Below, piece by piece: positions 284-51,403 of a stretch of DNA of 61,775 nt. Position 1 is the stretch's first letter, and the number at the start of each line of letters is the position of its first letter. Source of the DNA: Burkholderiaceae bacterium (GTDB lineage Bacteria > Pseudomonadota > Gammaproteobacteria > Burkholderiales > Burkholderiaceae_C); contig JAURWR010000053.1 in the NCBI GenBank assembly GCA_030654805.1, forward strand, positions 1 to 61,775, in the 5' to 3' direction. The notes beneath the pieces are model-generated. The model saw only the letters and a program-made list of their open reading frames with translations, was not told where the DNA came from and ran no database searches. A program made the position numbers and the translations under genes.

Positions 284-2413
284 TCACAAGCGGGAACAAT
301 TTGATCGTATGAGCAGCGCTTCAAACTCTTCGAGCGGCATGGGGCGCGCATAGAGGAATCCTTGATGCGCGGTGCAGCCGCGTTCCACCAGGAATGCGGA
401 TTGCTCGGCGGTCTCCACGCCTTCGGCGATGACGTGCAAGTTGAACTGTTTGCCCAGTTCGATGATGGAGCAGGCAATGGCGGCGTCGACACCACCGTTG
501 GCCGCATCCCGAACGAAGGCGCGGTCGATCTTCAGTTCGTGAATTGGGAATCGCTTGAGATAGCTGAGCGAGCAGAACCCGGTTCCGAAATCGTCGAGTG
601 AAAGGCGAAACCCCTTGCCTCGCAATGCATGCAGGCGAGCCACGGCGCGATCGATGTCGGTCATTGCCACCGACTCGGTGATTTCCAGGGTCAACTGGCG
701 GGTTTCGATGCCGAAGCGTTGAACGACATCCTCGAGTCGCTCGACCAGATCGTGCTGCATGAAGCTGGGGCTGGACAGGTTGATTGCCAACGGCACCGTT
801 GCGATTCCGGCTTGACCCCAACGCTGAAGAGCCTGGCAAGCGGTCTGCACGACCCAGTCCCCCAGGCGCACGATGAGTCCCAGCTCTTCCGCCAGCGGAA
901 TGAACTCGCCTGGCAGCACCAGACCGCGAGTCGGATGGCGCCAGCGGACCAGAACTTCGGCCGCGATCATGGCGCCGGTCAGGGCATTGATCTGCGGCTG
1001 AACGAACAGGCACAACTCCTCGGCCTGGATCGCATGACGCAGATCGCTCCCCAGAAGCAGCTTCTGACGGGTCGATGCATTCATTTGCTCGTCAAAGAAG
1101 TGATGCTGGCCTGCGCCGCTTTTCTTGGCCGAGTACATGGCCTGCTCTGCCTTCTGAGCCAGGCCTGCCGCGTCGTCTGCGTCGCGCGGGAACAGAGAGA
1201 TGCCCGCACTGGCGGTGAGCAAGAGCGAATGCTCACCCACCTCGATCGGCTGCGCCACAGCGCCCAGCAGGCGCGCGACGACGACGGCCGCCTGCTCGTT
1301 GCTGGCGATGTCCGTGAGCAAGATGGTGAAGGCATTTCCGCCGACGCGCGCCACCACCTCGGAGCTGAACCTCTGTCCGTTCACGGAGGCCACATCCGCC
1401 AGTCGGATGCCTCCTTGCAGGCGCTTGGCGAGAGTGCTCAGCACGGCATTCCCGCCATCCTGGCCCAGGGCATCGTTGACGCTCTTGAATCGATCCAGGT
1501 CGACATGCACCACAGCGCACAAGCCGTGATTGCGTCGCGCGCGCTCCAGCGCCGACGTCGCGAAGTTGATGAAGAGCTGACGATTCGCCAACCCGGTGAG
1601 TTCGTCATAGAAGGCCAGCTGATGGATTCGCTGCTCTGCCTCGACCCGTTCCGTGATGTCTTGCGTGACGGCGTCCACCGACACGATTCGGCCCGAAACA
1701 TCACGCTGAACTTCTGCCTGTTCGTGAAGCGTCCGGCGCTGGCCATCGGCTCGCTCGATCGAGAACGTGTGCTGATAGGCCTCGCCCTCGCGCGCCGCCG
1801 CGTCCCGCGCTCGTCGCACGGTGTGGCGATCCGATTCGCAGACGTGACCGAGCAGGTCTTGCGCCGTCAAGGTGCGTGAGGACGAGTCCTCCCGCCCCAG
1901 GATGCGCAGCAGTTCCCGCGAGCAAGTCATTTCTTCAGTGTCGATGGACCACTCCCAGCTTCCGAGGTTGGCCAACCGCTGCGCGTTGGCCAGATGCTCG
2001 CTGTTGCGCACCGCCGCTTCTGCGGCTGCGCTGGCACGCAGGCTGTAGCGAACCCGGTGCCCGAGCAAGGTCCAGTTGATGGGCTTGGTCACAAAGTCGG
2101 TGGCGCCGCAACGGAACGCGGTTTCGATGGACTCCGTGTCGTTCAAGCCGGTCAGCATCAGGATCGGCAGCGTTGCACCGCGTGCCGTTTCACGCAGGCG
2201 TGCGCAGACCTCAAAGCCGTCGAGGCCGGGCATCATCACGTCGATCAACAGCAGATCGAATTCGCCATCGGCGAACAGGCGCAACCCTTCTTCTCCGCAA
2301 TCCGCTGCCGTCACCTCGAAGCCGGCATGGCGCAGGGTCTGCGTCGCCATGCCGCGCAGGATGAGGTCATCGTCGACCAGCAGCAGCCTGGCTCTTGGCG
2401 TGTGCTCGTTCAT
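284..2413 (-). CDS. Response regulator with REC-PAS-GGDEF-EAL domains
   Basis: A 709-residue cytoplasmic protein, probably a c-di-GMP phosphodiesterase controlled by phosphorylation. The receiver domain (about 8-125) has the acidic cluster VDDD and a phospho-acceptor at D58. A PAS-like segment (about 140-258) precedes a GGDEF domain whose signature reads GGNAF at 358-362, so cyclase activity is not expected. The EAL domain (about 455-700) reads EVL at 486-488 but keeps the other metal and catalytic residues: NLSS, EITES, DDFGTG, LKID, EGVE and HQGF. The start is the ATG at 2411-2413, which overlaps the stop of the upstream kinase as ATGA; a longer frame to 2506 would lie inside the kinase gene. 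The overlap indicates translational coupling and a cognate kinase-regulator pair. Confidence 0.9.
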
Positions 2414-5235
2414 GCCGCCTCGGCTCCTTCCGTGGAGGCTGATCGACGGTGATGCTGCAGCGCGGCTTCGAACCGGCGGTATTCCACCCGCATCGCGGCC
2501 CGCCATTCGGGCGTGGGCGCGTTGCCAGCGCGAAGGAGGCTTTCATGCTGCTCTGCGACTGCGGCCAAGGCCAGCGCTCCCACCGATGCACTGGACGACT
2601 TGAGCGTATGGACTATTCGCAACACCGTCCGGGCGTCGCCCCGACGGGCTGCCGCGTCGATGGCGTCAAGCGAGCGACTCGCGTCCTGCACATACAGGTC
2701 AAGCAGCTCACGGCCGAAGTCGGGCTGGCTGCCGTCGACCACCATGGGCAGTGTTGCCACAAGCTGCGGGTCGAATGCTGGCGCCGCAGCAGCATCAGTC
2801 GCTATGGATTCCAAGTGCGAGACAGACACGGCGGTGTCGGGCGTTTGGTCACCGCGACCGGGCTTGGTGGGCTGGGTCACCAGCGTCCCGAGGTGACGCT
2901 GGAGGGTTTCTCGCAGGGCGGCGCCTGTGATGGGCTTGCTCAGGTAGTCGGTCATGCCGGCGGCAAGGCAAAGTTGACGATCGCCGGAAAGGGCATTGGC
3001 CGTCAGCGCGATGATGGGCACAGCGACTCGGCCTGGCGACTCGCGCTCCCGGGCGCGAATTCGGCGCGTGGCCTCCAGGCCGTCCATCTCGGGCATCTGC
3101 ATGTCCATCAGGATCAGGTCGTAGTCGTTCGCCTCGAACGCAGCCAGCGCCGCGCGTCCGTTTGAGGCCAGCTCCACCGCGTAACCCATCGACTTGAGCA
3201 TGCCCATCGCCACCTGCTGGTTCACGGGGTTGTCTTCGGCGACCAGGATGCGAGCCGGTCGCTCTACCCGGGCGGTGGCGGGCAGCGACGGCGTCCGTAC
3301 GTTGCGCGTTGCCTGAACATCTGCCAGGCAGTCCAGCAGCTGCGAGCGTCGCGCTGGTTTGGTCAGAACCTTCTGCACGCCCCAGGCCTGGAGCTGGGTC
3401 GGTCCCGGCGCCACGTCGGCCGGGACCATCAAGACGATGCGGACATCGGCGATGTCGGCTCCCTCGTGCACCCGACTCACCAGCTGAAGTCCGCTGACGC
3501 GGGGCATTTGCATGTCGATGAGCGCGACGTCGTAAGGGGCGCCGCGGGCTGCGGCATCGCGCAGCATGTCGAGCGCCTCCGCTGCTCCGCCTGCGCGGTC
3601 GGCGCTGATGCCCCAGGCGATCACCTGGTCACGCAACGCGTCCCGACTGGCCGCGTTGTCGTCGACCACCAGCACCCGCCGTCCTCGCGTCTCGCGCGTC
3701 GGCTGTTGCGATTCGCCGGTCGTTGCGCTGGCGAAACTGGCGGTGAACCAGAAGGTCGAACCCAGTCCGCCGATGCTGTCGACGCCGATGCCGCCCTTCA
3801 TCAGGTGGACCAGACGCTTGGCGATCGTCAATCCCAGGCCGGTTCCGCCGAACTTTCGCGTGGTCGAGCTGTCGGCTTGGGTGAAAGCGTCGAAAATCCC
3901 GTCCTGGGCGCTCGTTTCGAGCCCGATACCCGTGTCGCGCACCTCGAAGCGCAGCTGCACTCCCAGATCGTTCGTCGCCACGGCGTCGACGGCGATCACG
4001 ACGTCACCGCGCGAGGTGAATTTGATGGCGTTGCCGACCAGGTTGAGCAGCACCTGTTGCAGCCGGCCGGGGTCTCCCCTCACCATCGCTGGCAGCCCCG
4101 GAGCGAACCGGGTGACGAGCTCCAGGCCCTTGCCTTGTGCCGACCCGGCCAACAGCACGGAGACTTCCTCGACGCTCTCCACGAGATCGAAGTCGACGGC
4201 TTCCAGAACCAGCTTGCCCGCCTCGATCTTGGAATAGTCGAGCACGTCGTTGATGATCGCCAGCAGGATCCGGCCCGAGTGGCTGATGGTCTGCGCGTAA
4301 TGCAGCTGGTTGGGCGCCAGATCGGTGTTGAGCAGCAGCTCGGCCATGCCCAGCACGCCGTTCATCGGTGTGCGTATTTCGTGGGTCATCGTGGCGAGAA
4401 ACTGTGACTTGGCCTCGTTCGCGGTGTCGGCCTGCTGCTTGGCGATCTTCAGCTCGCTCACCGCCTGCGCCAGCGCCGCATCGCGGCTCTGAATCTGGTC
4501 CAGCATGGCATTGAAGCCGTCTATCAGGACACCGGTTTCTGCGCCAGTCGTCTTGCGCGAACGCAGCGCGTAGTCGCCCTGGCGCGACACCTCAGCCATG
4601 GTCTGCGCCAGATTCAGCAGGGGTTCGGAGATGATGCGCTGCAGCCGCGATGCCAGCAGATAGGCCACGTACAGCGCGCCGGCGAATACCAGCGCCGCAA
4701 ACCCGAGCTGTCGGTTGATCTGCGCCTGAAGCCGTGCGTTGGCGACCATCAACGTGAGGTGACCCACCGCCTTGCCATTGACCTCGATGCGGTGAACGAG
4801 CAGCAGGTGGTCGTCCTCGAAACGGTGCCATGCGGCAACCCCGTCCTTCAGCGCCGCCGCCTCAGACTCATGCAGCACACTGCCGTGCGCGATGCGCGCC
4901 AACAGTTCCTGCATTCCCGCCTTGGTGCTCTGCGCGGCTGCGAAGTGCGTGCCGTCGACCAGGTCGATATCGACCGCCAGCACCTCGTCTTCCTTGGTCA
5001 GCGCCGCAGCGATTTCGGTGGCCGCCGACTGGTCGAGAAACGCCAGTGCAGCGGCTGCGTTGATCGCCGACACCCGCGCCAGTGAGGTTGCCGAGGACAC
5101 CAGCGCTTCCCTGGCCGCCGTCGTCTGGTTGACCGCGAAGATCGTCGACGCCGACAGAAGGGCCAGCGCAGTCGTCGCCACAGCCACGGCGATGATCCGG
5201 AACCGGATCGAGAGATTGCTCAGCCGTGCGTGCAT
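2410..5235 (-). CDS. CHASE8-containing hybrid sensor histidine kinase
   Basis: A 941-residue inner-membrane phosphorelay kinase. In order: TM1 (about 11-32), a periplasmic CHASE8-type domain (about 35-165, with the characteristic [10 protein letters not shown] stretch), TM2 (about 178-197), HAMP (about 198-250), HisKA with phospho-histidine H285 in THEIRTP, HATPase, a first receiver ([15 protein letters not shown]), a second receiver ([15 protein letters not shown]) and a C-terminal Hpt domain with HTLKSSS. This is the BarA-like tripartite layout with an extra receiver. CHASE8 is the periplasmic domain of YfiN, which YfiR binds, and a YfiR-like gene ends 46 bases upstream. I infer that the periplasmic partner controls the kinase and that phosphate leaves through the Hpt domain to the overlapping response regulator. 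Confidence 0.92.
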
Positions 5236-5281
5236 GGCTGTCCGAATCCTGCCTGGCCTTGGCAGCCAGGGTGGCGCCGGG

Positions 5282-5812
5282 TCATGGATAGATCTCCCTC
5301 GCCAGGCGCAGCAATTTGGAGCTCAAGGTCAGGCGCGCGTCCTGCACGGCCTTCAGATTGACCTCGAACAGGATCTTCGAGTTCTGCACGGCCATGTTGA
5401 TGGCCGCACCGTCGCGCGCAGCGCCCGGGCTGTCGGTCACGACCAGCACCCGCAGTCCGTTCAGGGCACCGAGTACCAGTGGCAGCTCGCCGATCGCCGA
5501 AGGCGCGATGTAGAGCAGCTGGCAGTCCGTGATCGACTTGCGCGTGGTCATGTTCTGCACGGCGATGCTGCGTGTGCCGATCACCTTGCCGCTGAGCTGC
5601 TGGAGCTCTCCATCGAACGGATCCTGGCCCAGGACGCACAGGTTGAGCTTGTTGCCCACCTCGGCGGGCCATTCCGTGTACACCGCGAAGTTGTAGAGGA
5701 AGGCAGCCTTCAGTCGGTATTCGGGCAGGTCGGCACCGCGCGCCGCAGCGGCAAACAACAGCATGCCGAGCAGGCTCAGCGCGGTCCGGAGGGGGTGAGT
5801 GCTAAGCCGCAT
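5282..5812 (-). CDS. YfiR family periplasmic protein (DUF4154)
   Basis: A 176-residue exported protein of the YfiR/DUF4154 family. A signal peptide (about residues 1-27, ending near AAARGAD) is followed by the family opening [18 protein letters not shown], a central CVLGQDPF segment and a C-terminal [15 protein letters not shown] segment. In Pseudomonas, YfiR is a periplasmic repressor that binds the CHASE8 domain of the diguanylate cyclase YfiN. Here the neighbour with CHASE8 is a hybrid histidine kinase. The ATG at 5810-5812 was chosen because it places the hydrophobic signal core correctly; an in-frame extension to 5866 adds an Arg-rich stretch. The start overlaps the end of the upstream small gene by 11 bases, suggesting coupled translation. 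Confidence 0.9.
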
Positions 5813-6062
5813 CGTCGCCCTCCACGGCCGGCGGGCCACCGGCGTGCGCAACCTGCACGATGGCAATGTGCGACATCCGAATCGGCGCGACTTTCAGTTC
5901 AAGCAAGTTTTCCAACGGCAGCTGCAGAAGCTGCTCCAGGCGCATCGGGAGCGCGGCCCACTGAACGATCAATCCGAGGGCGCACACGCCAGTGACGAGC
6001 CCCGCGCGCCACTGCGACGCCATGACTGCAAGGCGGGCACCCACACGTGACATGCGCTTCAT
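5802..6062 (-). CDS. Small membrane-anchored protein between the TonB receptor and YfiR-like genes
   Basis: An 86-residue protein not assigned to a named family. It starts 6 bases after the TonB-receptor stop codon and overlaps the YfiR-like gene by 11 bases, so position argues that it is real. It has a basic N-terminus, one hydrophobic segment (about 20-38) and then the stretch LEQLLQLPLENLLELKV. That stretch resembles the element just after the signal peptide of the adjacent receptor (LTSLDLGQLMELTVVGAAK) and of many receptors of this class. I infer a membrane-anchored protein exposing a copy of this receptor motif in the periplasm. An alternative start three codons in (6051-6053) is possible. 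Its function is unknown. Confidence 0.6.
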   Translation of the reverse strand: MKRMSRVGARLAVMASQWRAGLVTGVCALGLIVQWAALPMRLEQLLQLPLENLLELKVAPIRMSHIAIVQVAHAGGPPAVEGDDAA

Positions 6063-6068
6063 CTCCCT

Positions 6069-8069
6069 TCAGTACCGGTAGCGCAGCCAGATGCCGGCAC
6101 GCCGTCCGTCCTGCTGGATGGCGTTCTGCCAGTTGCCGTCGGCCGCAGGATGGGCATATCGCTTGTCGAACAGGTTCTGGATGTCGAGAGACACCTCCAG
6201 GCCCGGGGCCAGCGATGCGGTGCTGAGATGCAGATTCGAGAGTGCCTGGCCGCCGAGCTTCGTGCCGGCGACGCTGTCACGACGGGAGTCGAAGCGCAGC
6301 TCGTATCCCATGCGCAGCCCGCCGACCGGCAAGGGGGTCGAGAAGTTGAGCCGCGCCAGCAGGTCGGGCGAATTCGGCGGGTCTTCTCCGTGTGAGGCAT
6401 CGACGCGCTGAATCGACACGTTGCCTCGCAGTCGCGCGCCGCTCCCCCATGTCTGGTCTGCAGACAACTCCAGGCCGTGGGCGTTGAGGTCGCTGCCCGA
6501 TTGGTACTGCGTCATCCCGCTGGCCGCATCGATGCCGAGCGAGATCAGCTTCTTCAAGGACCATCGGTAGACCGTCGCCCGCACCGCCAGATCGCGATTC
6601 ACGCGGTGATCCGCCACGAATTCCACGGTCTGGATGTCTTCGTCTTTCAGCGAGGGATTGGTGACCTGCGACACGCCGTCTGCATATTTGCTCTCGTAGG
6701 CGTTCGGCGCGCGACGGGCTTTTCCATACAGGGCCTTCAGCGTCGTCGTCGGGGCGGCTTGCCAGATCAGCGCGGCGCGCGGGCTCAAGGAGGAGCCCGT
6801 GACATCGTTGCGATCCGCACGCAATCCCACGGTGGCTGTCAACGCATGGGCGAAATGCCACTCGTCCTGCACGTACAGGCCGGCCCGGTAGCCCGGGGTA
6901 GACAGGGTCGTCTTGTGGCTGGAGTTGGCGGGGTCCGCCACGCTCTGGTCGATCCGGTTGTTGTCCTGGTATTCGAGCCCCAGCATGATTTTGTGATCGG
7001 TCAGCGCCGACGAGACCAGCCGCAGCTCGGCCCCGTGCCAGTCGCTCGCACCCCTGTCGGGCGTTCGCACGCCGTCGTAGACGAACTTGGAGTGGTAGCG
7101 CTGCTGGCCGCCGAACAGGCGTCCCGATACCTGCAGGGTGTCATCGACGAATTTGTCCTGGTAGTGAAGCTGGGCCAGCGAGTAGGCGTCGTTCTGATAC
7201 TGGCCGGGCGCCAGGGGATCCGAAAAATAGGCGGCGGTCGGATCGTCCTTGCGGCGACTGCCATGCGCGAATTCCATCGACCACGGGCCGTGAGCCGCGC
7301 GCGCGAAGAGCTGTCGGTTGCGCTCGCCGTCGAGCCCGGACGCCACGCCGGAAACGCCTGTGGCACCGAAGTCATAAAAATTGTTGGTGCCTCCAGAGCG
7401 CATGGCTGACACCGAAACCAGCAGGTCCAGGCCGTTTTCCAGCACCTTGCCCCAGCTCGCGCGTCCCTCGCGCAGCGACTGCGGGCCCTGGTAGGCCGCC
7501 GCGAGTTCGGTGCCGCCGAGATCGCGGCCGGCGCGGGTGACCACGTTCACGACGCCGAACATCGCGTTCTGGCCGTACACGGCGCTACCCGGCCCGGGGA
7601 TGAATTCGATGCGCTCGACCAGGTCCATGTCGAGCGGAAAGTCCCGGCCGAATGCTGCTCCGTCGTAGAGCGGATCGTTGGCCCGGTTGCCGTTGATGGT
7701 CACCAGCACGCGGGTGTTGTAGTCACCCGCCAGTCCGAAGCCGCGTGCACCGAGGTAGGTGTACTGACGATCGTTGGTGGTGTAGACCCCGGGCAGGCTC
7801 GCCAGGGCCTGGCCCAACGTCCGCCAGCCGAAGGCCTGTATTTCCTGGCGCGTGATGATGCTGGCCGCAGCGGCGACCTCGTTCTGCTTCTGCTCGTACT
7901 TGGCGGCGCCCACCACCGTGAGCTCCATCAACTGTCCCAGGTCGAGACTGGTCAAGTCATCCTTCGCTGCGCGTGCCGGCATCGCGGCCGCCAGTGCAAC
8001 GCACAGCGCCAACTGGCACAAATGCCGTGCGTGCAGGGGGTGGTGAGCACGGTGGATGCATGCGGGCAT
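6069..8069 (-). CDS. TonB-dependent outer-membrane receptor
   Basis: A 666-residue outer-membrane beta-barrel receptor. A signal peptide (about 1-32, ending AMPARAA) is followed by LTSLDLGQLMELTVV, a plug domain (about 50-165) with EFIPGPGSAVYGQNAMFGVV and an intact C-terminal barrel ending in an aromatic residue (RYRY). The ligand is not evident. The gene context is signalling (small protein, YfiR, kinase, regulator) rather than siderophore synthesis or ABC import, so it may act as a sensor as well as a transporter. The ATG at 8067-8069 fits the signal peptide; the frame extends to 8144, but that adds an implausible leader. No FecI/FecR-type sigma system is adjacent. Confidence 0.92.
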   Translation of the reverse strand: MPACIHRAHHPLHARHLCQLALCVALAAAMPARAAKDDLTSLDLGQLMELTVVGAAKYEQKQNEVAAAASIITRQEIQAFGWRTLGQALASLPGVYTTNDRQYTYLGARGFGLAGDYNTRVLVTINGNRANDPLYDGAAFGRDFPLDMDLVERIEFIPGPGSAVYGQNAMFGVVNVVTRAGRDLGGTELAAAYQGPQSLREGRASWGKVLENGLDLLVSVSAMRSGGTNNFYDFGATGVSGVASGLDGERNRQLFARAAHGPWSMEFAHGSRRKDDPTAAYFSDPLAPGQYQNDAYSLAQLHYQDKFVDDTLQVSGRLFGGQQRYHSKFVYDGVRTPDRGASDWHGAELRLVSSALTDHKIMLGLEYQDNNRIDQSVADPANSSHKTTLSTPGYRAGLYVQDEWHFAHALTATVGLRADRNDVTGSSLSPRAALIWQAAPTTTLKALYGKARRAPNAYESKYADGVSQVTNPSLKDEDIQTVEFVADHRVNRDLAVRATVYRWSLKKLISLGIDAASGMTQYQSGSDLNAHGLELSADQTWGSGARLRGNVSIQRVDASHGEDPPNSPDLLARLNFSTPLPVGGLRMGYELRFDSRRDSVAGTKLGGQALSNLHLSTASLAPGLEVSLDIQNLFDKRYAHPAADGNWQNAIQQDGRRAGIWLRYRY

Positions 8070-8232
8070 GTTGATTCCGGGTTCTCTTCGGCCGATGGCT
8101 GTCAGCTTCCCTGGCCCGGTGAAGGGTCGTGGAAATGCCGACACAACGGTTCATCGGCATGATCGAAGAAAACTTGACGGACGAGCCGGGTCGAAAACCT
8201 CGGCGAACCGGAGGGCCGAGGGTCGCGTCGAA

Positions 8233-8856
8233 TCAACCCGCCGCGTCGGGCAGGAACGGGCGGATGACCGCCAGCACGCGCTCGACGTAGGCGTCCTTCT
8301 CGCCGACCGGCGCCGCGTAACGCAACGCCTGCGCGGCCGCGTCGAGGCCGGCGCCGCGAGCCATCATCCAGGCGGCCAGGTATTGCGACGCGAGGCAACC
8401 GCCTGCCGTGGCCAGCGAGCCGCGCGCAAGGAACGGGGATTCCTCGACGCGCACACCGGCTTCGATCACCCAGGGTTTGGTGTTCGAGTCGGTGCAGGCG
8501 GGCATGTCGGCCAGCAAACCCAGCCGCGCCATCATCAAGGTGCCCGAGCACTGGGCGCCGATCAGCTGGCGCAGCGGGTCGAGACGCAGCCGGTCGAGCA
8601 GCGCACCGCGCTTGCCGATGTCCTCGGCGATCGCGCGGGTGTAGATGCCGCTGCCGAAGATCACCGCGTCCGCCTCGTTGGCGAACTCCAGTGGCTGCTG
8701 TGCCTGCACCGTCACGCCGTTCATCGACGTCAGGTGCGAGGTCGGGCCGGTGATCTCGGCCTTCCAGCCGCGCGCGCTCAACCGGTTCAGCAGCCCGAGC
8801 GGCACGAAGGCATCGATTTCGTTGAAGCCGTCGAAAGTCAGTATCGCGATGCGCAT
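8233..8856 (-). CDS. DJ-1/PfpI family protein
   Basis: A 207-residue member of the DJ-1/PfpI class I glutamine amidotransferase-like superfamily. It begins RIAILTFDGFNEIDAF, a typical first strand carrying the conserved acidic residue, and has a nucleophile-elbow cysteine in GAQCSGTLMMA followed by ATAGGCLASQYLAAW. Members include chaperones, glyoxalases, amidases and regulator domains; the exact activity cannot be fixed from sequence. There is no DNA-binding domain, so it is not an AraC-type regulator. It lies 32 bases downstream of dps on the same strand, which suggests co-transcription with the oxidative-stress genes. The short C-terminus ends at the family core. Confidence 0.85.
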   Translation of the reverse strand: MRIAILTFDGFNEIDAFVPLGLLNRLSARGWKAEITGPTSHLTSMNGVTVQAQQPLEFANEADAVIFGSGIYTRAIAEDIGKRGALLDRLRLDPLRQLIGAQCSGTLMMARLGLLADMPACTDSNTKPWVIEAGVRVEESPFLARGSLATAGGCLASQYLAAWMMARGAGLDAAAQALRYAAPVGEKDAYVERVLAVIRPFLPDAAG

Positions 8857-8888
8857 GGTGACCCCTCAGCTGGAGCGGTGGGAACTTC

Positions 8889-9416
8889 TCAGTCTTCGAG
8901 CAGGCTGCGCAGCATCCACGCGGTCTGCTCGTGCACCGTCAGGCGCTGCGTCAGCAGGTCGGCGGTGGGTTCGTCACCAGCCTTGTCGGCCAGCGGGAAG
9001 ATGCTGCGTGCGGTGCGGGCGACCGCTTCATGGCCATCGACCAGGATGCGCACCATCTCCAGCGCCTTCGGCGGCGTGGACGGGGCGTCCTTGAGCGACG
9101 TCAGCGCACCGAATTGCGCGTAGGAGCCTGGCGCCGGGTGGCCGAGCGCCCGGATGCGCTCGGCGATCGGATCGACCGCATTCCACAACTCGGTGTACTG
9201 CCCCATGAACATCAGGTGCAGCGTGTTGAACATTGGCCCGGTGACGTTCCAGTGGAAGTTGTGGGTCGTCAGGTACAGCGTGTAGCTGTCGGCCAGCAGG
9301 TGGCTCAAGCCGCCGGCGATCGCCGCGCGGTCTTTCTCGCTGATGCCAATGTTGATCCGGCTGGGGGCGGCGACCACGGTGACGGGCGCGGTACTCGATT
9401 TCGATTTCTTGACCAT
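8889..9416 (-). CDS. dps: Dps family ferritin-like DNA-protection protein
   Basis: A 175-residue Dps miniferritin that stores iron by oxidising Fe(II) with hydrogen peroxide and protects DNA. The ferroxidase signature is present: [12 protein letters not shown], then [22 protein letters not shown], which supplies the His, Asp and Glu ligands shared between subunits. The N-terminal tail contains Lys-Lys-Ser-Lys, which may help DNA binding. The start is the ATG at 9414-9416, preceded by an AGGAG ribosome-binding site; the open frame to 9467 lacks support. It sits directly downstream of oxyR in the same direction with 82 bases between, and Dps is a classic OxyR target, so peroxide induction is likely. 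Confidence 0.95.
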
Positions 9417-9498
9417 CGGAAACTCCTGCGTGTCGTGAACAGCTCGGTTGAAAAACCAGAGGTTCAAGTCTATCGACGCGGCCCGTCGTGCGCTTGAC

Positions 9499-10419
9499 TC
9501 AGGACAAGCGCGTCACGCCTGCCAGCGGACAGGCGTAGATCGCATTGCGCAGCGCGGCGATCGCCTCGTAGCGCGTGAAGGTGCGTCGCCAGGCCAGCAC
9601 GACGCGCCGCGTCGGCACCGGCGGCGCGAACGGCACATAGGTGATGTGCTTGTCGGTGTCGGCCGGCACGCTGAGCTGTGGCACCACCGTGACACCCATG
9701 CCCGAGGCGACCATGTACTTGATGGTTTCGAGCGACGAGCCTTCGAAGCTCTTGCGGATGCCTTCGGCGTCGCTCGAAAAGTGCGCGTACTCGGGACACA
9801 CCTCGAGCACGTGGTCGCGAAAGCAGTGCCCGGTGCCCAGCAACAGCATCGTTTCCTTCTTCAGCTCCTCGGCGCTGATGCGCTTGCGCCGTGCCAGCGG
9901 GTGCTTCTTTGGCACGGCGACCATGAACGGCTCGTCGTACAGCGGTGCGATGGCGAGCCCGGCGTCGGGGAACGGCTCGGCGAGGATCGCCGCATCGAGT
10001 TCGCCCGTGCGCAGCATGTCCAGCAGCTTGACGGTGAAGTTCTCTTGCAGCATCAGCGGCATCCGCGGCACCAGCTCGATCGCCTGTCGCACCAGGTCGG
10101 GCAGCAGGTAGGGCCCGATCGTGTAGATCACGCCCAGGCGCAGCGGGCCCGACACCGGGTCCTTGCCGCGGCGTGCGATCTCCTTGATGCCGGCGGCCTG
10201 CTCGATCACCGTCTGTGCCTGCCGCACGATCTCGCCGCCCAGCGGCGTCACGCTGACCTCGCTGCTGCCGCGCTCGAACAGCTTGACGTCGAGTTCTTCC
10301 TCGAGCTTCTTGATGGCCACGCTGAGCGTCGGCTGCGAGACGAAGCAGGCTTCGGCGGCGCGCCCGAAATGCCGCTCGCGGGCGACGGCGACGATGTATC
10401 GGAGTTCGGTCAGGGTCAT
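9499..10419 (-). CDS. oxyR: Peroxide-sensing LysR-family regulator OxyR
   Basis: A 306-residue LysR-type activator of the peroxide response. The N-terminal winged helix-turn-helix (about 1-60, with [23 protein letters not shown]) is followed by an effector domain with the redox pair C199 (GTGHCF) and C208 (EVCPEY). These positions are the same as the disulfide-forming cysteines of E. coli OxyR, which makes the assignment strong. It lies 69 bases downstream of recG and upstream of dps on the same strand, an order reported in other proteobacteria. Peroxide oxidation of C199 should switch it to activate targets such as dps. Confidence 0.96.
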
Positions 10420-10488
10420 GGTGTGGGGCTGGCGTGCGGCCGGCGGTGCGGGACCCCGGCAATGTAGCCAACTCGCGCGTTTTTCGCC

Positions 10489-12771
10489 TCACGCCTTCAG
10501 GTAGTCGGCCCGGCTGCCGAGCCACCGCACCACCTGACGCCGGGCCGCCTCCGGATGGCGCTCGAGCATCGCGTCGGCGGCCGTGCGCGCCGCATGCAGC
10601 AGCGGCAGGTCGTCGTTCAGGTCGGCGAAGCGCAACAGCGCGGCACCCGACTGACGCGCACCGAGAAACTCGCCGGGTCCGCGGATCGCCAGATCGCGCC
10701 GGGCGATCTCGAAGCCGTCGGTCGTCTCGGCCATCGCCTTCAGGCGTGCCTTGCCGGTGATCGACAGCGGAGCCGCATACAGCAGCACGCACACACTGGC
10801 GACCGAGCCGCGTCCGACGCGCCCGCGCAGCTGGTGCAATTGGCTCAGCCCGAAGCGCTCGGCGTGCTCGATGACCATCAGGCTCGCGTTCGGCACGTCG
10901 ACACCGACCTCGATCACCGTGGTGGCGACCAGCACCGACAACTCGCCAGCGGTGAACCGAGCCATCGTCGCGGCCTTGTCAGCCGCCTTCATCCGGCCGT
11001 GCAGCAGGCCGACGCCCAGGCCGGGCAGCGCGTCGCTCAGCTTCTGGTGCGTGTCGATCACGTTCTGCAACTCGGGGCGCTCGCCGAACGGTCGTGTCGC
11101 CGAACGCCCTTCGTCCTGGGCTGGTGCGGTGTCGCCTTCGGCCGTCTCCTCGATCAGCGGGCAGACCCAGTAGACCTGCTTGCCCTGCGCCACCTCGTCG
11201 CGGATGCGCTCGACCACCGCGTCGCGCTTGGTGTCGGCGAATACCTTGGTGACGATCGGCGTGCGGCCCGGCGGCAGCTCGTCGATCGTGCTGATGTCGA
11301 GGTCGGCGTACATCGTCATCGCCAGCGTGCGCGGGATGGGGGTGGCGCTCATCATCAACAGATGCGGAGTCAGGGTGCCCCCAGGCCCCCGCGAGCGGTG
11401 GCCGCCCCCCGAGGGGGTGAGGCCCCCTGGGGGCGGCCCGGCGGTGTCCTCGTGCACGCGCTGCTCCAGCTTGCTGCGCAGGGCCAGCCGCTGCGCGACG
11501 CCGAAGCGGTGCTGTTCATCGACGATGGCGAGGCCGAGCTTCGCGAACTGCACATCGTCCTGGATCACCGCGTGGGTGCCGATCACCAGGCCGGCCTCAC
11601 CCGAGGCGACGCGCTCCAGCATCTCGCGCCGGCTGCGGCCCTTGCGGCTGCCGGTCAGCCACGCGGTGGTGATGCCCAGCGGTTCGAGCCAGCCGACCAG
11701 CTTGCGGAAATGCTGGTCGGCCAGGATCTCGGTCGGCGCCATCAGCGCGCACTGCCAGCCGTTGTGGATCGCGATGGCCGCCGCCAGTGCTGCCACCACC
11801 GTCTTGCCCGAACCGACGTCGCCTTGCAGCAGGCGGTGCATCGGCACGGCGGCGGCGGTGTGCGGGTCACGGTCGCTGTCTCTTGGGTCAATGCGAGCGC
11901 GTTGCAGGTCGGCCGCGATCTCCTCGACGACGCGGCGCTGTGCACCGGTCAACGCGAACGGCAGCACCGCGAGCAGCTGCTCGTGCAGCCCGCCAGCGGT
12001 GACCGCGAAGCGAGGCGCATGCTGCTTCGCGCGTTCGCGCTTGGCCTGCAATTGCGACAGCTGCTGAGCCAGCAGCTCCTCGAACTTCAGTCGTTGCCAG
12101 GCCGGGTGTGAACGGTCGTCCAGCGCCGACAGCGACACGTCGGCCGGCGGGTGATGCAGCCACTGCAGCGCCTCGCGCAGCGTGGCCAGGCCGCGCGGCA
12201 GCAACTCGGCCGGCACGGTTTCGGACAGATCGGCGCGTTGCAGCGCCGATGTCACTGCGCGCCGCAGGTAGGCCTGCGGCAGCGACGCGCTGGTCGGATA
12301 GACCGGGGTCAGCGCGGTCGCCAGCGGGCTGTCGCCGTCGACTGCCTTGAACGTCGGGTGCACCATCTCCAGCCCGAAGAACCCGCCGCGCGCTTCGCCG
12401 CGTGCGCGAACGCGGCGGCCCTCGGCCAGCGTCTTCTGGTGCGACGGATAGAAGTGCAGGAAGCGCAGCAGCAAGGTGTCGCCGGCGGCGTCGGCCAGCG
12501 TTACCAACAACTGCCGGCGGTTGCGCAGCTGGATCTCGCAACGCTGCACCACGCCTTCGACCTGCGCCGCCACCCCGTCGTGCAGCGCGGCGATCGGTGT
12601 CAGCCGGGTCTCGTCCTCGTAGCGCAGCGGCACGTGCAGTGCGAGGTCGATGTCGCGGCGCAGGCCGAGTTTCTCCATCGCACGCAGCGGGCCCGACTTC
12701 GCTCGAGCGGCCGGTGCGCTGGCCGTGGCCGTGTCGCGGGCGTCAGTCGGGGTCGGCGCACGGGTGGGCAT
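10489..12771 (-). CDS. recG: ATP-dependent DNA helicase RecG with an in-frame insertion
   Basis: A 761-residue superfamily 2 helicase that remodels stalled forks and branched recombination intermediates. Visible parts are the N-terminal wedge/OB region (about 80-190), Walker A GDVGSGKT, the Walker B box VDEQHRFG, motif III SATPIPRT and a C-terminal helicase domain with QLRGRVGRG. Unusual is a Gly/Pro-rich insert of about 27 residues (about 441-467) between LRSKLEQ and PHLLMMSATP. It is encoded by a GC-rich palindromic repeat that normally occurs between genes. It falls between motifs II and III, where RecG proteins have a variable loop, so the enzyme is probably still active. The ATG at 12769-12771 was chosen over an upstream extension that would run through the queA promoter region. 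Confidence 0.95.
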   Translation of the reverse strand: MPTRAPTPTDARDTATASAPAARAKSGPLRAMEKLGLRRDIDLALHVPLRYEDETRLTPIAALHDGVAAQVEGVVQRCEIQLRNRRQLLVTLADAAGDTLLLRFLHFYPSHQKTLAEGRRVRARGEARGGFFGLEMVHPTFKAVDGDSPLATALTPVYPTSASLPQAYLRRAVTSALQRADLSETVPAELLPRGLATLREALQWLHHPPADVSLSALDDRSHPAWQRLKFEELLAQQLSQLQAKRERAKQHAPRFAVTAGGLHEQLLAVLPFALTGAQRRVVEEIAADLQRARIDPRDSDRDPHTAAAVPMHRLLQGDVGSGKTVVAALAAAIAIHNGWQCALMAPTEILADQHFRKLVGWLEPLGITTAWLTGSRKGRSRREMLERVASGEAGLVIGTHAVIQDDVQFAKLGLAIVDEQHRFGVAQRLALRSKLEQRVHEDTAGPPPGGLTPSGGGHRSRGPGGTLTPHLLMMSATPIPRTLAMTMYADLDISTIDELPPGRTPIVTKVFADTKRDAVVERIRDEVAQGKQVYWVCPLIEETAEGDTAPAQDEGRSATRPFGERPELQNVIDTHQKLSDALPGLGVGLLHGRMKAADKAATMARFTAGELSVLVATTVIEVGVDVPNASLMVIEHAERFGLSQLHQLRGRVGRGSVASVCVLLYAAPLSITGKARLKAMAETTDGFEIARRDLAIRGPGEFLGARQSGAALLRFADLNDDLPLLHAARTAADAMLERHPEAARRQVVRWLGSRADYLKA
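11371..11450. repeat. GC-rich palindromic repeat inserted in frame inside recG
   Basis: About 80 bases of runs of C and G with several short palindromes (GGCCGCCCCCCGAGGGGG, GGCCCCCTGGGGGC). The same core, CCCCCTCGGGGGGC followed by a GC-rich tail ending in GGGGG, occurs between genes at 15631-15668. In recG it is a whole number of codons and adds about 27 residues without a stop. I infer insertion of a dispersed, non-coding repeat into a surface loop. The exact ends are uncertain by about 10 bases without an alignment. Confidence 0.7.
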
Positions 12772-12892
12772 GGGCGAATTCTGACCGCAGGCCCGACGCC
12801 GGGCCGCGCCCTGCGTGGAACAATCCGGCCGCCTGTTCCGGGCCCGTCGCAGCACCACACCGGCGTTGGCGGCGGCCCACCTCGGCCTTCCC

Positions 12893-13987
12893 ATGACCGC
12901 TTCGTACACGCTTTCCGACTTCGATTTCGACCTGCCGCCCGAACTGATCGCTCAGCACCCGGCGGCCGAGCGCAGCGCGTCGCGGCTGCTCGATGGCACC
13001 GGCCCCGCCCCGGTCGACCGGGTGTTCCGCGAGCTGCCGTCGCTGTTGAACGCGGGCGACCTGCTGGTCTTCAACGACACCCGTGTGATCAAGGCGCGGC
13101 TGCTCGGCGTCAAGGCCACCGGCGGTCACGTCGAGGCGCTGGTCGAACGCGTGCTGCCGGGCCACGAGGTGCTGATGCACCTGCGTGCCAGCAAGTCGCC
13201 GAAGCGCGGCCAGTGCGTGCGTTTCGCGCGCAGTGTGGAGGCGGCGCTGTCCGCCGAGGTCACCAGCGGCTTCGATGCCGAGGTGCTCGGCCGCGCCGGG
13301 CCCGAGGACGCGCTGTTCCACCTGCGTTTCCCGTCCGACCCGCAGGCGCTGCTGGAGCGCTTTGGTCATGTCCCGCTGCCGCCCTACATCACGCACGCCG
13401 ACGATGCCGACGACGAGCGGCGCTACCAGACGGTGTTTGCATCCAAGCCCGGCGCGGTCGCGGCGCCGACGGCGGCCCTGCATTTCGATCAGGCGCTGCT
13501 CGATGCGCTGACCGCGCGCGGCGTCGAGCAGGCGCGCGTCACGCTGCATGTCGGCGCCGGCACGTTCCAGCCGGTGCGCACCGAAAACCTGGCCGAACAC
13601 CGGATGCACAGCGAGTGGTACGAGGTCGGTGCCGACACGGTCGATGCGGTGGCCCGCACGCGCGAGCGCGGCGGACGCGTCGTCGCGGTCGGCACGACGA
13701 GCTTGCGCGCGCTTGAATCGGCAGCGCGCGGCGGCTCATTGCGCGCGGGCGTCGGCGACACCGACATCTTCATCACGCCGGGCTTTCACTTTCGCGTGGT
13801 CGATGCGCTGGTCACCAATTTCCACTTGCCGCGCAGCACGCTGATGATGCTGGTCAGCGCGCTGGCCGGCCACGCGCACGTGATGGCGCTGTACCGCCAC
13901 GCGATCGCGCAGCGCTACCGCTTCTTCAGCTACGGCGACGCGATGCTGCTGACGGCCCTGCCCGACGCGCGTTCGGCGCGCGGTTGA
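12893..13987 (+). CDS. queA: S-adenosylmethionine:tRNA ribosyltransferase-isomerase QueA
   Basis: A 364-residue cytoplasmic enzyme that transfers and isomerises the ribosyl part of AdoMet onto preQ1-tRNA to give epoxyqueuosine. Recognisable features are the opening [15 protein letters not shown], the central [26 protein letters not shown] and the C-terminal [21 protein letters not shown] and [11 protein letters not shown]. Length matches the family. The ATG at 12893 follows directly on the divergent recG promoter region. The gene converges on the GT39 gene with only three bases between the stop codons. tgt, the next-but-one enzyme of the pathway, is encoded 3 kb downstream, so the usual queA-tgt linkage is broken by two envelope genes. 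Confidence 0.97.
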
Positions 13988-46893: not shown

Positions 46894-49236
46894 ATGGTCC
46901 ACAGTCTCGATGACCTGCGGGTGGTGCTGTCGCCGGGCCTCGACGAGGCGCCGGTGCTCGACCGCATGTGCTCGCAGTTCGTGCTGACGTTGACGATGCG
47001 CCACGTCGGGCGCTTCAACCTGCGTCGCGACTGGAACAGCCTGTTGTCGCTGACCGGGCGGCACCTGGTCTGGCCGGTGTCGGTGCTGACGCGGCTGCGC
47101 GAGTTCCTGAAGACGCGCTGCCGCGGCAACGAGCAGTGGCGCGGCCACGAGACGCTGAGCGACGACGCCTTCATCGAGCGGCACGGCAGCTGGCGCGGGC
47201 CGTATGAGGAAGTGACGCTGTTCTTCTACGTCGACGAATACATCAAGGACGCGCCGAAGGACCTGCTCGCGGTGCTCGGCGCCACCGCCGACTGGCTGGA
47301 ACGCAGCCTGAAGAAGGAATCGACGCTGGTCGAGAAGAACATCGATGCGCTGGCCGGCCTGTTGCAGCTGAACCCGGCCGAACGCGCGCTGCTGTTGTAC
47401 GGCACGCTGGCGCGTTATCAACGCGACCTGCGCGGTCTGCTGGTCGAGTTCAAGGTGTCGAGCGCGCAAGAGGCCTACGCCGCGATCGCCACCGTCGCCG
47501 GCGTCAACGCGGCCGATGTGGCCGATGCGCTGCGTGCCGGGTCGCGGCTCGAACGCATCGGCATGGTCGAGAACCTGATCTCCGAACACAACATCACCGA
47601 CCTCGCCGACCTGATGAAGGTCAGCGAGCAGCTGCCGCCGGTGCTGATGCGCAAGTACGAAGGGCCATCCGACCTGATGGCGGTGTTCACCCGGCCGGCC
47701 AAGCGCAGCGAGCTGCTGCCGTTGGACTTCCATTACGTCAGCGAAGACCACCGCGTGCTGACCGCGTTGCTGAGCCACGCGGTGGCGCGCCGGGAACCCG
47801 GCGTCAACGTGCTGCTGTACGGCCCGCCCGGCACCGGCAAGACCGAACTCGCCAAGGTGGCGGCGCAGGCGGCGGGGCTGGAGTTGTACGAGGTCGAGTA
47901 CGCCGACCGCGACGGCAACAGCCTGAACGGCCGCGACCGCTACCGCTCTCTGCAGATCAGCCAGGTGTTCCTGAAGGCGAGCGCCAACGTGGCGCTGCTG
48001 TTCGATGAAGTCGAGGATGTGTTCCCGCCGATCTCCACCGACGCCGCGCAGCTGATGGCGCGGCTCGACACCGGCGATGGCGCGCCGAGCGGCAGCGTCA
48101 GCGGCAAGGCCTGGGTCAACCAGATCCTCGAGACCAACCCGGTGCCGGTGATCTGGGTGACCAACCGCATCGAGCAGATCGACCCCGCCTTCCGGCGCCG
48201 TTTCCAGTACCACCTCGAACTGAAGAGCCCGCCGCCCGGCGCGCGCGAGGCGCTGGTGACGCGCGCGCTGGCCGGCGTACCGGTGTCCGACGGTTTCGTG
48301 GCGCGGCTCGCCGAGCGGCGCGGGTTGACGCCGGCGCAGGTGCGCACCGCGGTCAAGTTCGCCAGGCTGGCGACGCCGGCCGCCGCGTTGGAGGAGGGCG
48401 CCGCTGCCGATCCCGCCGCGCACTGCGCCGCCTTCGAAGCGCTGATCGAGCGCCAGATCGGCAACGCCGACAAGGCGCTCGGCACAGCGTCGCCCGAGCG
48501 CGCGGCGCGGCGCGTGGTCACCTCTTACGACCTCGGCCTGGTCAACACCGAATCGCGCTTCGAGGTGCCGAAGATCGTCGAGGCGCTGCGCCGCAAGTCG
48601 TACGGCACGCTGTGCTTTTACGGCCCGCCCGGCACCGGCAAGACCGCGCTCGCCGAGCACATCGCGCAGCAGCTGCAGCGCCCGCTGATGGTCCGGCAGG
48701 CGTCGGACATCATGAGCAAATTCGTCGGTGAAACCGAGCAGAACATGGCGCGCATGTTCGAGGAGGCGCAGACCGAACAGGCGGTGCTGTTGCTCGACGA
48801 GGCCGACAGCTTCCTGCGCAGCCGAATCCTGGCCGAGCGCAACTACGAGATCAGCGAAGTCAACGAGATGCTGCAGGGCATGGAGCGCTTCGCTGGCGTG
48901 TGCATCTGCACCACCAACCTGTTCGGCGAGCTCGATGAGGCGGCGCTGCGCCGCTTCACCTTCAAGGTCCGCTTCAAGCCGCTGACCGTCGAGCAGCGCG
49001 AGCGCATGTTCGTCGCCGAGGCGCTCGACGGCGAGGCGACACGGCTCACCGCAGAGCAGCGGGCGCGGCTGCGCGAGCTGGACGCGCTCGCTCCCGGCGA
49101 CTTCGCCTCGGTCAAGCGTCAGATCGACGTGCTGGGCGAAGCCTTCGAGCCCGATGAGTTTCTGTCGCAGCTCGAAGCCGAACACCGCGTCAAGCCCGAG
49201 GTGCGACAGCAGTGTCACATCGGGTTCATGCACTGA
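46894..49236 (+). CDS. Tandem AAA+ ATPase of unknown function
   Basis: A 780-residue cytoplasmic protein with two AAA+ modules and an N-terminal region of about 300 residues that I do not recognise. Module 1 has Walker A GPPGTGKT (310-317), Walker B LLFDEVED and an arginine finger-like FRRRFQYH; module 2 has Walker A GPPGTGKT (577-584), Walker B LLLDEADSFLRSR and a sensor region RFTFKVRFK. The whole resembles CDC48/SpoVK-like double-ring ATPases. No protease, nuclease or transmembrane domain is present. The ATG at 46894 has AGAGGTG ahead of it; an Arg/Pro-rich upstream extension was rejected. The partner and substrate are unknown. It is divergent from the RES/Xre module and followed 40 bases later by a GGDEF-EAL gene. 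Confidence 0.85.
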   Translation: MVHSLDDLRVVLSPGLDEAPVLDRMCSQFVLTLTMRHVGRFNLRRDWNSLLSLTGRHLVWPVSVLTRLREFLKTRCRGNEQWRGHETLSDDAFIERHGSWRGPYEEVTLFFYVDEYIKDAPKDLLAVLGATADWLERSLKKESTLVEKNIDALAGLLQLNPAERALLLYGTLARYQRDLRGLLVEFKVSSAQEAYAAIATVAGVNAADVADALRAGSRLERIGMVENLISEHNITDLADLMKVSEQLPPVLMRKYEGPSDLMAVFTRPAKRSELLPLDFHYVSEDHRVLTALLSHAVARREPGVNVLLYGPPGTGKTELAKVAAQAAGLELYEVEYADRDGNSLNGRDRYRSLQISQVFLKASANVALLFDEVEDVFPPISTDAAQLMARLDTGDGAPSGSVSGKAWVNQILETNPVPVIWVTNRIEQIDPAFRRRFQYHLELKSPPPGAREALVTRALAGVPVSDGFVARLAERRGLTPAQVRTAVKFARLATPAAALEEGAAADPAAHCAAFEALIERQIGNADKALGTASPERAARRVVTSYDLGLVNTESRFEVPKIVEALRRKSYGTLCFYGPPGTGKTALAEHIAQQLQRPLMVRQASDIMSKFVGETEQNMARMFEEAQTEQAVLLLDEADSFLRSRILAERNYEISEVNEMLQGMERFAGVCICTTNLFGELDEAALRRFTFKVRFKPLTVEQRERMFVAEALDGEATRLTAEQRARLRELDALAPGDFASVKRQIDVLGEAFEPDEFLSQLEAEHRVKPEVRQQCHIGFMH

Positions 49237-49276
49237 CCTTTTCTGTGTTGGAGGCGCGCGGCGCCCTCAAGTGCGG

Positions 49277-51403
49277 ATGTCCGGCGCCGATAAGCCCCGC
49301 ATGATCGAGATGTTCGTGCCGTCGCTGCTTGCTCTGGACTGGATGCTGGCGTTTCTGGCAGCGTTCGTCTGCCTGGACCTGGCGAAACGTCTCGAATCGA
49401 AGCTCGACCGTGAAGGTTTCGGCTGGCTGCTGGGTGCTTCGCTCGCGCTGGCCACCGGTCTGTGGTCGGCGCAGGTGATCGGCATCGATCGGCTCGACCT
49501 TCCCTATGCCATCGAATACCGGCCGGTGCCCGCTTTCGGCGTTTGGCTCGGCGCTGGAGCCGCCTGCGCGCTGGGTTTGGCCGTGGCATGCCGTCGGTCC
49601 GCAGGCCTGGATCGCACGCTGATCGGTGCCCTCCTGCTGGCCGGCGGCATCGTCGGCATTCAGGTGTCATTCGTCGAGGCGCTGGGCCTGCAACCGGGCC
49701 CGGCATGGTTGCTGCCGGGACTGGGTATCGCGCTCATCGCTGCCGCTGCGGGTTGCTCTGCGGCGTTGTGGCTGTACGCGGAGGTTCGCGTGCGGGTGAA
49801 ACAGGGTTTGCTGGCCTGGCAGGCCGCCGCTGCGCTGATCCTGGGCATCGCGATCGTCGTTTCCCAGAGCCTCGTGATGGGCGCAGCGGGGCTGAATGGG
49901 GTTCATGTCACGACGGCCATGCAGGACGTGTTGTCGGAAGACGCCATGGGCGTGCTGGTCAAGGTCGGCTCAGCGGCCTTGCTGTCGATGTTGCTGGTGA
50001 TGTCGCAGCTCGAAGCGCACCTGCGCGCGTCGTTGCAGCGCGCCAAGGGCGAACTGCGGAAGCAGTCGTTTCGGGACCCGCTGACCGAACTCCCCAACCG
50101 GCAGATTTTCGAGGGCACGCTGGCCCAGGCCGCGCATCAGGCGGACACCAGCCAGGGCGGATTGGCGTTGCTGCTCGTCAACCTCGATGGTTTCAAGCCG
50201 ATCAACGAGTCTCTGGGCCATCGTGTGGGCGATCGCGTGTTGCGCGAGATCGCTGCGCGGCTGCGCAGCCTGGCCCAGGCGCACATGGTCGCGCGGCTGG
50301 GCGGAGATGAATTCCTGCTGCTGATGCCGGACAACCCGACCACCGAACAGGCGGCCGATCTGGCCGCGAGGGTGCTGGGGTCGTTGAGTCTGCCGTGCCG
50401 AATCGAAGGGCGTGAAACCGCAGTGACTGCTTCGATCGGCATCGTCATGTATCCCGAGCACGGCGCGGTCTCGACCTTGATCGCGCATGCGGACGCGGCG
50501 ATGCGATTTGCCAAGTCCAGCGGGGGTGCGACCTACTGCTTCTTCGAGGCACGCATGGTGAGCGGCCTGCGCGAGCAGACCGAGTTGCTTCGCGACCTGC
50601 GCCGGGCACTGGCGCAAGGCGAGCTGGAGTTGTTCTACCAGCCCAAGATTCACGCGCCGACGGGCGAGATCACCGGTGCCGAGGCGCTGATGCGCTGGCA
50701 GCACCCGCGGCTCGGCATGATCAGCCCGGTCGTCTTCATCCCGATCGCCGAGCGCTTCGGCTTGATCGGCTCGCTCGGCAACTGGCTGATCGATGAGGTG
50801 TGCCGGCAGATTCGCGTCTGGCGTGACGGCGGGCTGCGGATGCGTGTGGCGATCAACCTGTCGGTGCATCAGTTGCGCCAGCCGGATCTGGTCGAGCGCA
50901 TTGCCCGCGCCTTGGGAGAACACGACGTCAACCCGGGTCTGCTCACCTGCGAGATTACCGAGTCGGTGGCCATGGAAGACGCCGAAGGCACGATCAGGTT
51001 CTTCGGACAGCTGGCCCAGCTGGGGGTCAGCATCTCGATCGACGATTTCGGCACCGGGCATTCGAGCCTGGCCTACTTGCGCAAGCTGCCAGCCAGCGAA
51101 CTGAAGATCGATCGCAGCTTCGTGCTCGACCTGGAGACCAGCGAAGACGCGCGAAAGGTCGCCTCTGCGGTGATCAATCTGGCGAAATCGCTCGATCTGA
51201 AGGTGGTGGCCGAAGGCGTCGAGACCGAAGGCCAGAACCGCATCCTGCGTGAGTTCGGGTGTGATCAGCTGCAGGGCTACCTGTTCGCCAAGCCGATGTC
51301 GGCAAAGGCGCTGGCGCTGTGGGCGATGGATGATGTCGGCCCGCGATCGATGACTTTCCGTTCGTCCCTGTTCAAGGAAACCCAACCTGCCGAACTGGCA
51401 TGA
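49277..51403 (+). CDS. Membrane GGDEF-EAL protein with a degenerate MHYT-like sensor
   Basis: A 708-residue inner-membrane protein for cyclic-di-GMP turnover. The first 260 residues contain seven hydrophobic segments in an MHYT-like arrangement, but the MHYT motifs read WSAQVIG, GIQVSF and a third position without Met-His-Tyr-Thr. The GGDEF domain (about 270-430) has an intact RLGGDEF and the EAL domain (about 445-690) an intact GAEALMRW, with EITES, DDFGTG, LKIDRSF and EGVE. Both activities are therefore possible. The start is uncertain: the best ribosome-binding site (GGAGG at about 49249) is 23 bases ahead of the ATG at 49277; a GTG at 49271 and an ATG at 49301 are alternatives. Confidence 0.87.
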   Translation: MSGADKPRMIEMFVPSLLALDWMLAFLAAFVCLDLAKRLESKLDREGFGWLLGASLALATGLWSAQVIGIDRLDLPYAIEYRPVPAFGVWLGAGAACALGLAVACRRSAGLDRTLIGALLLAGGIVGIQVSFVEALGLQPGPAWLLPGLGIALIAAAAGCSAALWLYAEVRVRVKQGLLAWQAAAALILGIAIVVSQSLVMGAAGLNGVHVTTAMQDVLSEDAMGVLVKVGSAALLSMLLVMSQLEAHLRASLQRAKGELRKQSFRDPLTELPNRQIFEGTLAQAAHQADTSQGGLALLLVNLDGFKPINESLGHRVGDRVLREIAARLRSLAQAHMVARLGGDEFLLLMPDNPTTEQAADLAARVLGSLSLPCRIEGRETAVTASIGIVMYPEHGAVSTLIAHADAAMRFAKSSGGATYCFFEARMVSGLREQTELLRDLRRALAQGELELFYQPKIHAPTGEITGAEALMRWQHPRLGMISPVVFIPIAERFGLIGSLGNWLIDEVCRQIRVWRDGGLRMRVAINLSVHQLRQPDLVERIARALGEHDVNPGLLTCEITESVAMEDAEGTIRFFGQLAQLGVSISIDDFGTGHSSLAYLRKLPASELKIDRSFVLDLETSEDARKVASAVINLAKSLDLKVVAEGVETEGQNRILREFGCDQLQGYLFAKPMSAKALALWAMDDVGPRSMTFRSSLFKETQPAELA

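Follow-up and report, generated by a model that had tools for sequence, protein, structure and literature searches.

In the YfiBNR system of Pseudomonas aeruginosa (HmsCDE of Yersinia), a YfiR-like protein is encoded beside an inner-membrane protein with a CHASE8 domain, an outer-membrane partner takes part, and the outcome concerns cyclic di-GMP (c-di-GMP). In TonB transducers of the FecA/FpvA type, a TonB receptor signals via its N-terminal tail, and ligand-induced exposure of the TonB box is known in other TonB-dependent receptors (TBDRs). The steering of a kinase's extracytoplasmic PAS-like domain by separate accessory proteins is known from WalK and YycH/YycI. NCBIfam release 20 contains separate models for the YfiR of YfiBNR-type sequestration (NF053586) and, also built by NCBI curators, for a set consisting of TOL_0243, TOL_0244 and a kinase annotated as YfiR-like protein-associated. 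According to an excerpt of the published report, TOL_0244 is up sevenfold on the n-C28 alkane in Thalassolituus and is compared there to OmpS, an alkane receptor (PMC6304351). Here, a locus of related composition is described from a Burkholderiaceae bacterium (GCA_030654805.1, contig JAURWR010000053.1, positions 1–61,775). The whole stretch of 61,775 nucleotides (nt) is referred to as the window, and the genes studied occupy its positions 284–8069. We consider it fairly probable that they form an envelope signalling module made of a TBDR, YfiR and a CHASE8 protein, with a phosphorelay as its output. Five minus-strand open reading frames (ORFs), running from 8069 to 284, make up the locus:

6069..8069, minus strand: TBDR with plug and beta-barrel (Pfam Plug and TonB barrel)
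5802..6062, minus strand: small protein of 86 amino acids with a signal-peptide-like start (by eye), MRLEQLLQLPLENLLELKV and a variable tail (ORF, homologues in six other genomes, motif score)
5282..5809, minus strand: YfiR-like periplasmic protein, DUF4154 (Pfam, NCBIfam, PDB match, tree)
2410..5235, minus strand: hybrid histidine kinase TM-CHASE8-TM-HAMP-HisKA-HATPase-REC-REC-Hpt, TM being a transmembrane segment (Pfam, NCBIfam, sensor model)
284..2413 (longest ORF 284..2506), minus strand: response regulator REC-PAS-GGDEF-EAL (Pfam, catalytic residues)

The five genes, their order and their domains had been named in an earlier note made from the sequence alone, and all of this was borne out by the ORFs and by Pfam. 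Pfam recognizes Plug (4.6e-19) and TonB barrel (1.7e-33) in the receptor, DUF4154 (5.2e-42) in YfiR, CHASE8 (1e-8; 35.8 bits, cut-off 27), HAMP, HisKA, HATPase_c, two REC domains and Hpt in the kinase, and REC, PAS_3, GGDEF and EAL in the regulator. The receptor start was taken as the ATG at 8069 (the longest ORF begins with GTG at 8144). The small ORF begins 6 nt past the receptor stop and overlaps YfiR by 8 nt, YfiR and the kinase are 46 nt apart, and a regulator start at the ATG at 2413 would give an ATGA overlap with the kinase stop. A search of the window's own assembly (131 contigs) gave one YfiR and one CHASE8, both at this locus.

The linkage of YfiR with CHASE8 is conserved both in the family and in the phylum, and this lends good support to the reading of the genes as one signalling module, which the earlier note had offered together with a proposal to search genomes for co-occurrence of TBDR, YfiR and CHASE8. 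A single-sequence YfiR scan of contigs gave four loci only (L002–L005; L and G numbers denote loci and genomes), and hence the linkage was counted from genome searches. In the family sample (200 genomes, the window's included), YfiR was found in 68 genomes at 107 places and CHASE8 at 122 places. Of the 107 YfiR, 89 are followed on the same strand by a CHASE8 at less than 1 kb, another 12 have one no farther than 8 kb away, and 6 lack it; 21 of the 122 CHASE8 places are without a paired YfiR. The phylum sample (398 genomes) contains 124 YfiR places, of which 119 are outside the family; 88 of these are directly upstream of CHASE8 and 6 more are within 8 kb of it. The module is patchy within the window's genus, one genome of which (G103) has no YfiR and no CHASE8 match, and one order-level relative (G299, L169–L172) has seven YfiR places. 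On a Nitrosomonas contig (L003), a TBDR-YfiR pair is accompanied by a hybrid kinase and a REC-GGDEF-EAL gene located upstream in the opposite orientation.

The gene content around YfiR was read in 100 of the 106 family loci other than the window's and in 40 of the 119 phylum loci, hand-picked for spread. In 73 of the 100 family loci, YfiR has a same-strand TBDR no more than 700 nt away; one locus has a TBDR arranged otherwise within 1.5 kb, and 26 have neither; among the 40 phylum loci, 21 belong to the first class and 1 to the second. The output of the CHASE8 protein differs between the family loci: it is a kinase in 41, GGDEF in 31 and GGDEF-EAL in 19, while in 4 the CHASE8 frame has no nameable domain and in 5 no CHASE8 is present. 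The attachment of CHASE8 to a kinase, which had been regarded as unusual in the earlier note, is therefore the commonest arrangement beside YfiR in the family sample. An adjacent REC..EAL regulator, as in the window, is found in 9 of the 34 family loci with both kinase and TBDR. Five TBDR-YfiR pairs among the 100 family loci have no CHASE8 detected nearby (L093, L094, L104, L116 and L133). An alternative order, CHASE8-GGDEF, TBDR, YfiR, occurs at L067, L070, L072, L077, L080, L082, L085, L088, L091 and L124, where the receptor's tail helix, described below, is about ten residues ahead of the TonB box.

A sequence-pattern scan of 141 loci, the window included, revealed an OmpA-like, YfiB-type protein in 17, all of them CHASE8-GGDEF loci without a TBDR (17 of 25 such loci); none was found in the 97 TBDR loci or beside the window YfiR, by a scan which divergent proteins could escape. 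Because YfiB was found only in CHASE8-GGDEF loci lacking a TBDR, TBDR and YfiB appear to be alternative outer-membrane partners, one replacing the other. In a tree of 141 YfiR domains, made by a quick search on few columns, 23 rows, all from CHASE8-GGDEF loci without a TBDR, are split from the 118 others with full support (Shimodaira–Hasegawa-like approximate likelihood ratio test, SH-aLRT, 100). The window YfiR falls with the TBDR-linked rows, outside this YfiBNR-type clade. On the best tree, the output label requires at least 13 changes (shuffled mean 52.7), although the well-supported branches alone force only two per label. Taken together, the locus survey, the YfiB pattern and the tree suggest that YfiR-CHASE8 is a sensor core that stays constant, while the outputs can be exchanged and the outer-membrane partner is one of two.

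In the window, the phospho-acceptor His and Asp residues of the phosphorelay are present (by eye). The model of the kinase sensor consists of two long helices flanking a PAS/CACHE-like domain (predicted local distance difference test, pLDDT, 86.7; predicted template modelling score, pTM, 0.70); its fold is nearest to WalK, the best match being a WalK-YycH model, and weakly resembles CitA and DctB. In the regulator, the EAL residue set is intact in the alignment and the GGDEF motif reads GGNAF. The cyclase half looks dead, a detail absent from the earlier note, and a working cyclase in the window regulator was rejected on account of this motif. With EAL intact and GGDEF degenerate, c-di-GMP breakdown is the likely output, as judged from the catalytic residues. 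The active-looking EAL and the phosphodiesterase output expected in the earlier note are further supported by the 17 REC-GGDEF-EAL proteins of these loci (not all kinase-adjacent), in which EAL is intact in 17 and GGDEF exact in 7.

The TBDRs linked to YfiR share a feature in their N-terminal tail, which the earlier note had missed together with its copy in the small protein. After the signal peptide, a motif near LSLEELMNIEV leads into what we take, from its usual form, to be the TonB box. In the window receptor, it reads LDLGQLMEL (residues 42–50 of the 6069–8069 ORF; 7920–7946) and runs into the TonB box. With a 9-residue profile, each receptor being left out in turn, scores above 6 bits were obtained for 84 of the 92 TBDRs linked to YfiR and for 1 of the 24 unlinked ones, which came from four genomes. 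Among 12 more TBDR rows (11 distinct) outside the linkage rule, ten score 11–26 bits, most of them being neighbours of a YfiR in a different layout (downstream of it, divergently oriented, or next to a second YfiR), and two score below 0 despite a YfiR within a few kb. In the AlphaFold2 model of the window receptor (mean pLDDT 90.8, pTM 0.89), the motif forms a short low-confidence helix (residues 44–48, block mean pLDDT 58) outside the well-modelled plug, as would be expected of a free tail. The nearest fold is BtuB at 20% identity, by which no ligand is named, and Pfam, at E up to 0.001, finds Plug and barrel only and no STN signalling domain.

A model combining the motif with the plug start was then run on the 200 family genomes, with matches listed to E near 6e-6; receptors whose helix is apart from the TonB box match only its later part and are omitted from the motif count. 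Among the matches listed, 64 include the motif, and 59 of these are within 4 kb of a YfiR. All 43 genomes with a motif TBDR among these matches have YfiR, and none of the 132 YfiR-less genomes has one (Fisher p 2e-26). The remaining five motif TBDRs (L236–L240) have no neighbouring YfiR, and their genomes hold YfiR elsewhere. With seven profiles, no other signalling gene was detected within ~7 kb of four of them; near the fifth, a hybrid kinase is encoded on the opposite strand. These receptors may signal to a distant YfiR.

The alternative that survives best takes the TBDR as a transporter only: its cargo, bound in the periplasm by YfiR or by CHASE8 directly, would set the kinase, and the motif would be an extended TonB box in a non-signalling tail. 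This is conceivable and yet unlikely. The YfiR-less genomes contain many matches to the plug part of the model alone, although no motif TBDR is among the matches listed for them. Moreover, in loci of the order CHASE8, TBDR, YfiR, a similar SLEELL stretch is still kept about ten residues before the TonB box (by eye), and in the small protein the helix is copied but what follows it is not (by eye).

An extra ORF was found between TBDR and YfiR in the window, L042, L039 and L043. The four proteins have a signal-peptide-like start (by eye), followed by approximately TLxxLLxLPLExLLELKV and then by dissimilar tails. In a ranking of 10,116 short locus ORFs by the receptor-tail profile, they take ranks 1, 2, 4 and 11; of 2000 shuffles, 0 to 7 match each protein's own score (1 for the window). 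The best-scoring stretch of the window protein is MRLEQLLQL, immediately before LPLENLLEL. A profile of the four proteins retrieved three more, which gives 7 of 399 genomes in seven genera at E <1e-8, the window included; in all seven, the ORF is placed between TBDR and YfiR. The match in G635 extends past a stop, with the ORF intact across the motif. The profile also gave a second match in G784 and 13 weaker ones. A reading of the small protein as membrane-bound was dropped, as the homologues show a cleavable-looking signal peptide (by eye). From its sequence, we interpret the small protein as the receptor tail motif in secreted form.

It could instead be a non-functional remnant of a duplication of the TBDR 5' end, which we regard as rather unlikely. 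Such an origin would agree with the variable tail and with the retrieval of TBDR N-termini by the small-protein profile (four of the next five loci fetched, the fifth being another protein). However, seven genomes of seven genera retain all three features, ORF, signal-peptide-like start and motif, with three of the proteins 32–34% identical to the window's, and second codon positions are the least variable in the 19-codon core, with 95 pairwise differences in 399 vs 189 at first and 192 at third positions. The codon comparison is a weak test, since one row contains an additional residue and leucine codons raise the first-position count.

A further explanation places the sensing in YfiR itself, which would respond to periplasmic redox state or misfolding like HmsC, with the TBDR as a co-regulated passenger. 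Excerpts of the sources state that HmsC of Yersinia pestis acts on HmsD via redox state (PMC8846402) and that P. aeruginosa YfiR has cysteine pairs (PMC4655355). The window YfiR has two cysteines, sufficient for one bond, but this is one possible pair vs two in the P. aeruginosa protein, and the linkage to the TBDR is too regular for a passenger, which makes this explanation very improbable. That five unrelated genes are neighbours by chance, for which only the patchy distribution and the same-genus genome without YfiR and CHASE8 could be cited, is already contradicted by the linkage, with an order conserved over many genera and families, and can practically be dismissed.

If the TBDR is a signalling receptor, the module might work as follows. 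We propose that ligand binding to the TBDR would free the N-terminal tail, together with the helix at its TonB box, so that it enters the periplasm, in keeping with the ligand-induced TonB-box exposure of other TBDRs. The released helix would capture YfiR, a role equivalent to that of YfiB in YfiBNR. With YfiR off the CHASE8 domain, the kinase would change state, and phosphate would pass from His to Asp to the His of Hpt and to the Asp of the regulator, whose EAL domain would lower c-di-GMP. The threshold would be set by the small protein, which carries the helix in soluble form and would contend with the receptor tail for the same partner (YfiR or TonB). That the TBDR ligand would control YfiR, and YfiR the kinase, as the earlier note had proposed, is inferred by analogy with YfiBNR. 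The wider idea is tentative, and we hold it to be possible rather than probable: YfiR-linked TBDRs would signal by a new route, in which ligand binding would expose a short amphipathic helix at the TonB box and this helix, by capturing YfiR, would control whichever CHASE8 protein is present, be it a cyclase, a GGDEF-EAL protein or a kinase, with the small secreted protein as a soluble decoy that tunes or buffers the switch.

Several observations weigh against signalling by the receptor tail. A clear motif is missing in 8 of the 92 linked TBDRs, 5 of the 64 motif TBDRs among the matches listed have no adjoining YfiR, and 25 of the 68 YfiR genomes have no motif TBDR among these matches. The motif-plus-plug model was itself derived from YfiR-linked receptors, and the motif could track the descent of one TBDR clade and serve TonB, not YfiR. 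Most TBDR-YfiR loci are without the small protein, and chance ORFs also score high with the receptor-tail profile (ranks 3 and 5–10). In the phylum, a TBDR is not close by in 18 of the 40 loci; some of these have one farther away (L169, L176, L183), and the receptor profile, built on family sequences, may miss distant TBDRs. The core linkage is also incomplete there, as 25 of the 119 YfiR outside the family are without CHASE8 among the 121 CHASE8 rows used, an upper bound because weaker rows were omitted.

If signalling by the receptor tail is correct, then many TBDRs (43 of the 200 family genomes have at least one with the motif) would be sensors for c-di-GMP and phosphorelay control and not plain importers, and the tail motif would mark which TBDRs are sensors. 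YfiR would gain a second outer-membrane partner besides YfiB. Receptors like TOL_0244 or OmpS might in this way report their substrates with no need for an STN domain.

Elsewhere in the window, a DJ-1/PfpI protein (Pfam) and ORFs resembling Dps, OxyR and RecG (by eye) lie upstream of the TBDR on the same strand (8233–12909). A further ORF at 49154–51403 appears by eye to be a membrane GGDEF-EAL protein with a full GGDEF.

How the locus stands to the described systems can be judged from the NCBIfam scores and from its composition. The window YfiR reaches 119.5 bits with NF053591 (TOL_0243 YfiR-like; cut-off 125) and 42.5 with NF053586 (YfiBNR YfiR; cut-off 85), the kinase 132 bits with NF053592 (HK_near_YfiR_like; cut-off 194), and the TBDR 141.8 with NF053590 (TOL_0244 TonB receptor; cut-off 645); the match of the window YfiR to a PDB YfiR is 8.5e-5. 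The window set thus scores closest to the trio of TOL_0243, TOL_0244 and histidine kinase, yet is under all three cut-offs. Among eight YfiR of other loci, L036, L039, L049 and L054 pass NF053591, whereas L042, L043 and L112 fail, and L106, a YfiBNR-type YfiR, passes NF053586; of two other kinase sensors scanned, L054 passes NF053592 and L042 fails. In YfiBNR, CHASE8 is on a GGDEF diguanylate cyclase (YfiN) and the outer-membrane partner is the OmpA-like lipoprotein YfiB, whereas the window has CHASE8 on a hybrid kinase with a REC-PAS-GGDEF-EAL regulator, a TBDR as the partner, and a YfiR outside the YfiBNR-type clade. Unlike FecA/FpvA-type transducers, the window TBDR is without an STN domain, and YfiR would take the place of the anti-sigma factor as its partner. 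The accessory proteins of WalK, YycH and YycI, are unrelated to those of the window and belong to Gram-positive bacteria. No description of the module as such was found among the titles and abstract openings that searches of an open-licence library listed, nor was the receptor-tail motif or its secreted copy found described. The trio, in contrast, is already known to NCBIfam: the same three kinds of protein are adjacent in the window (the trio's own adjacency being judged from model names and locus numbers), and the window is a variant of it, to which a small protein and a phosphodiesterase regulator are added.

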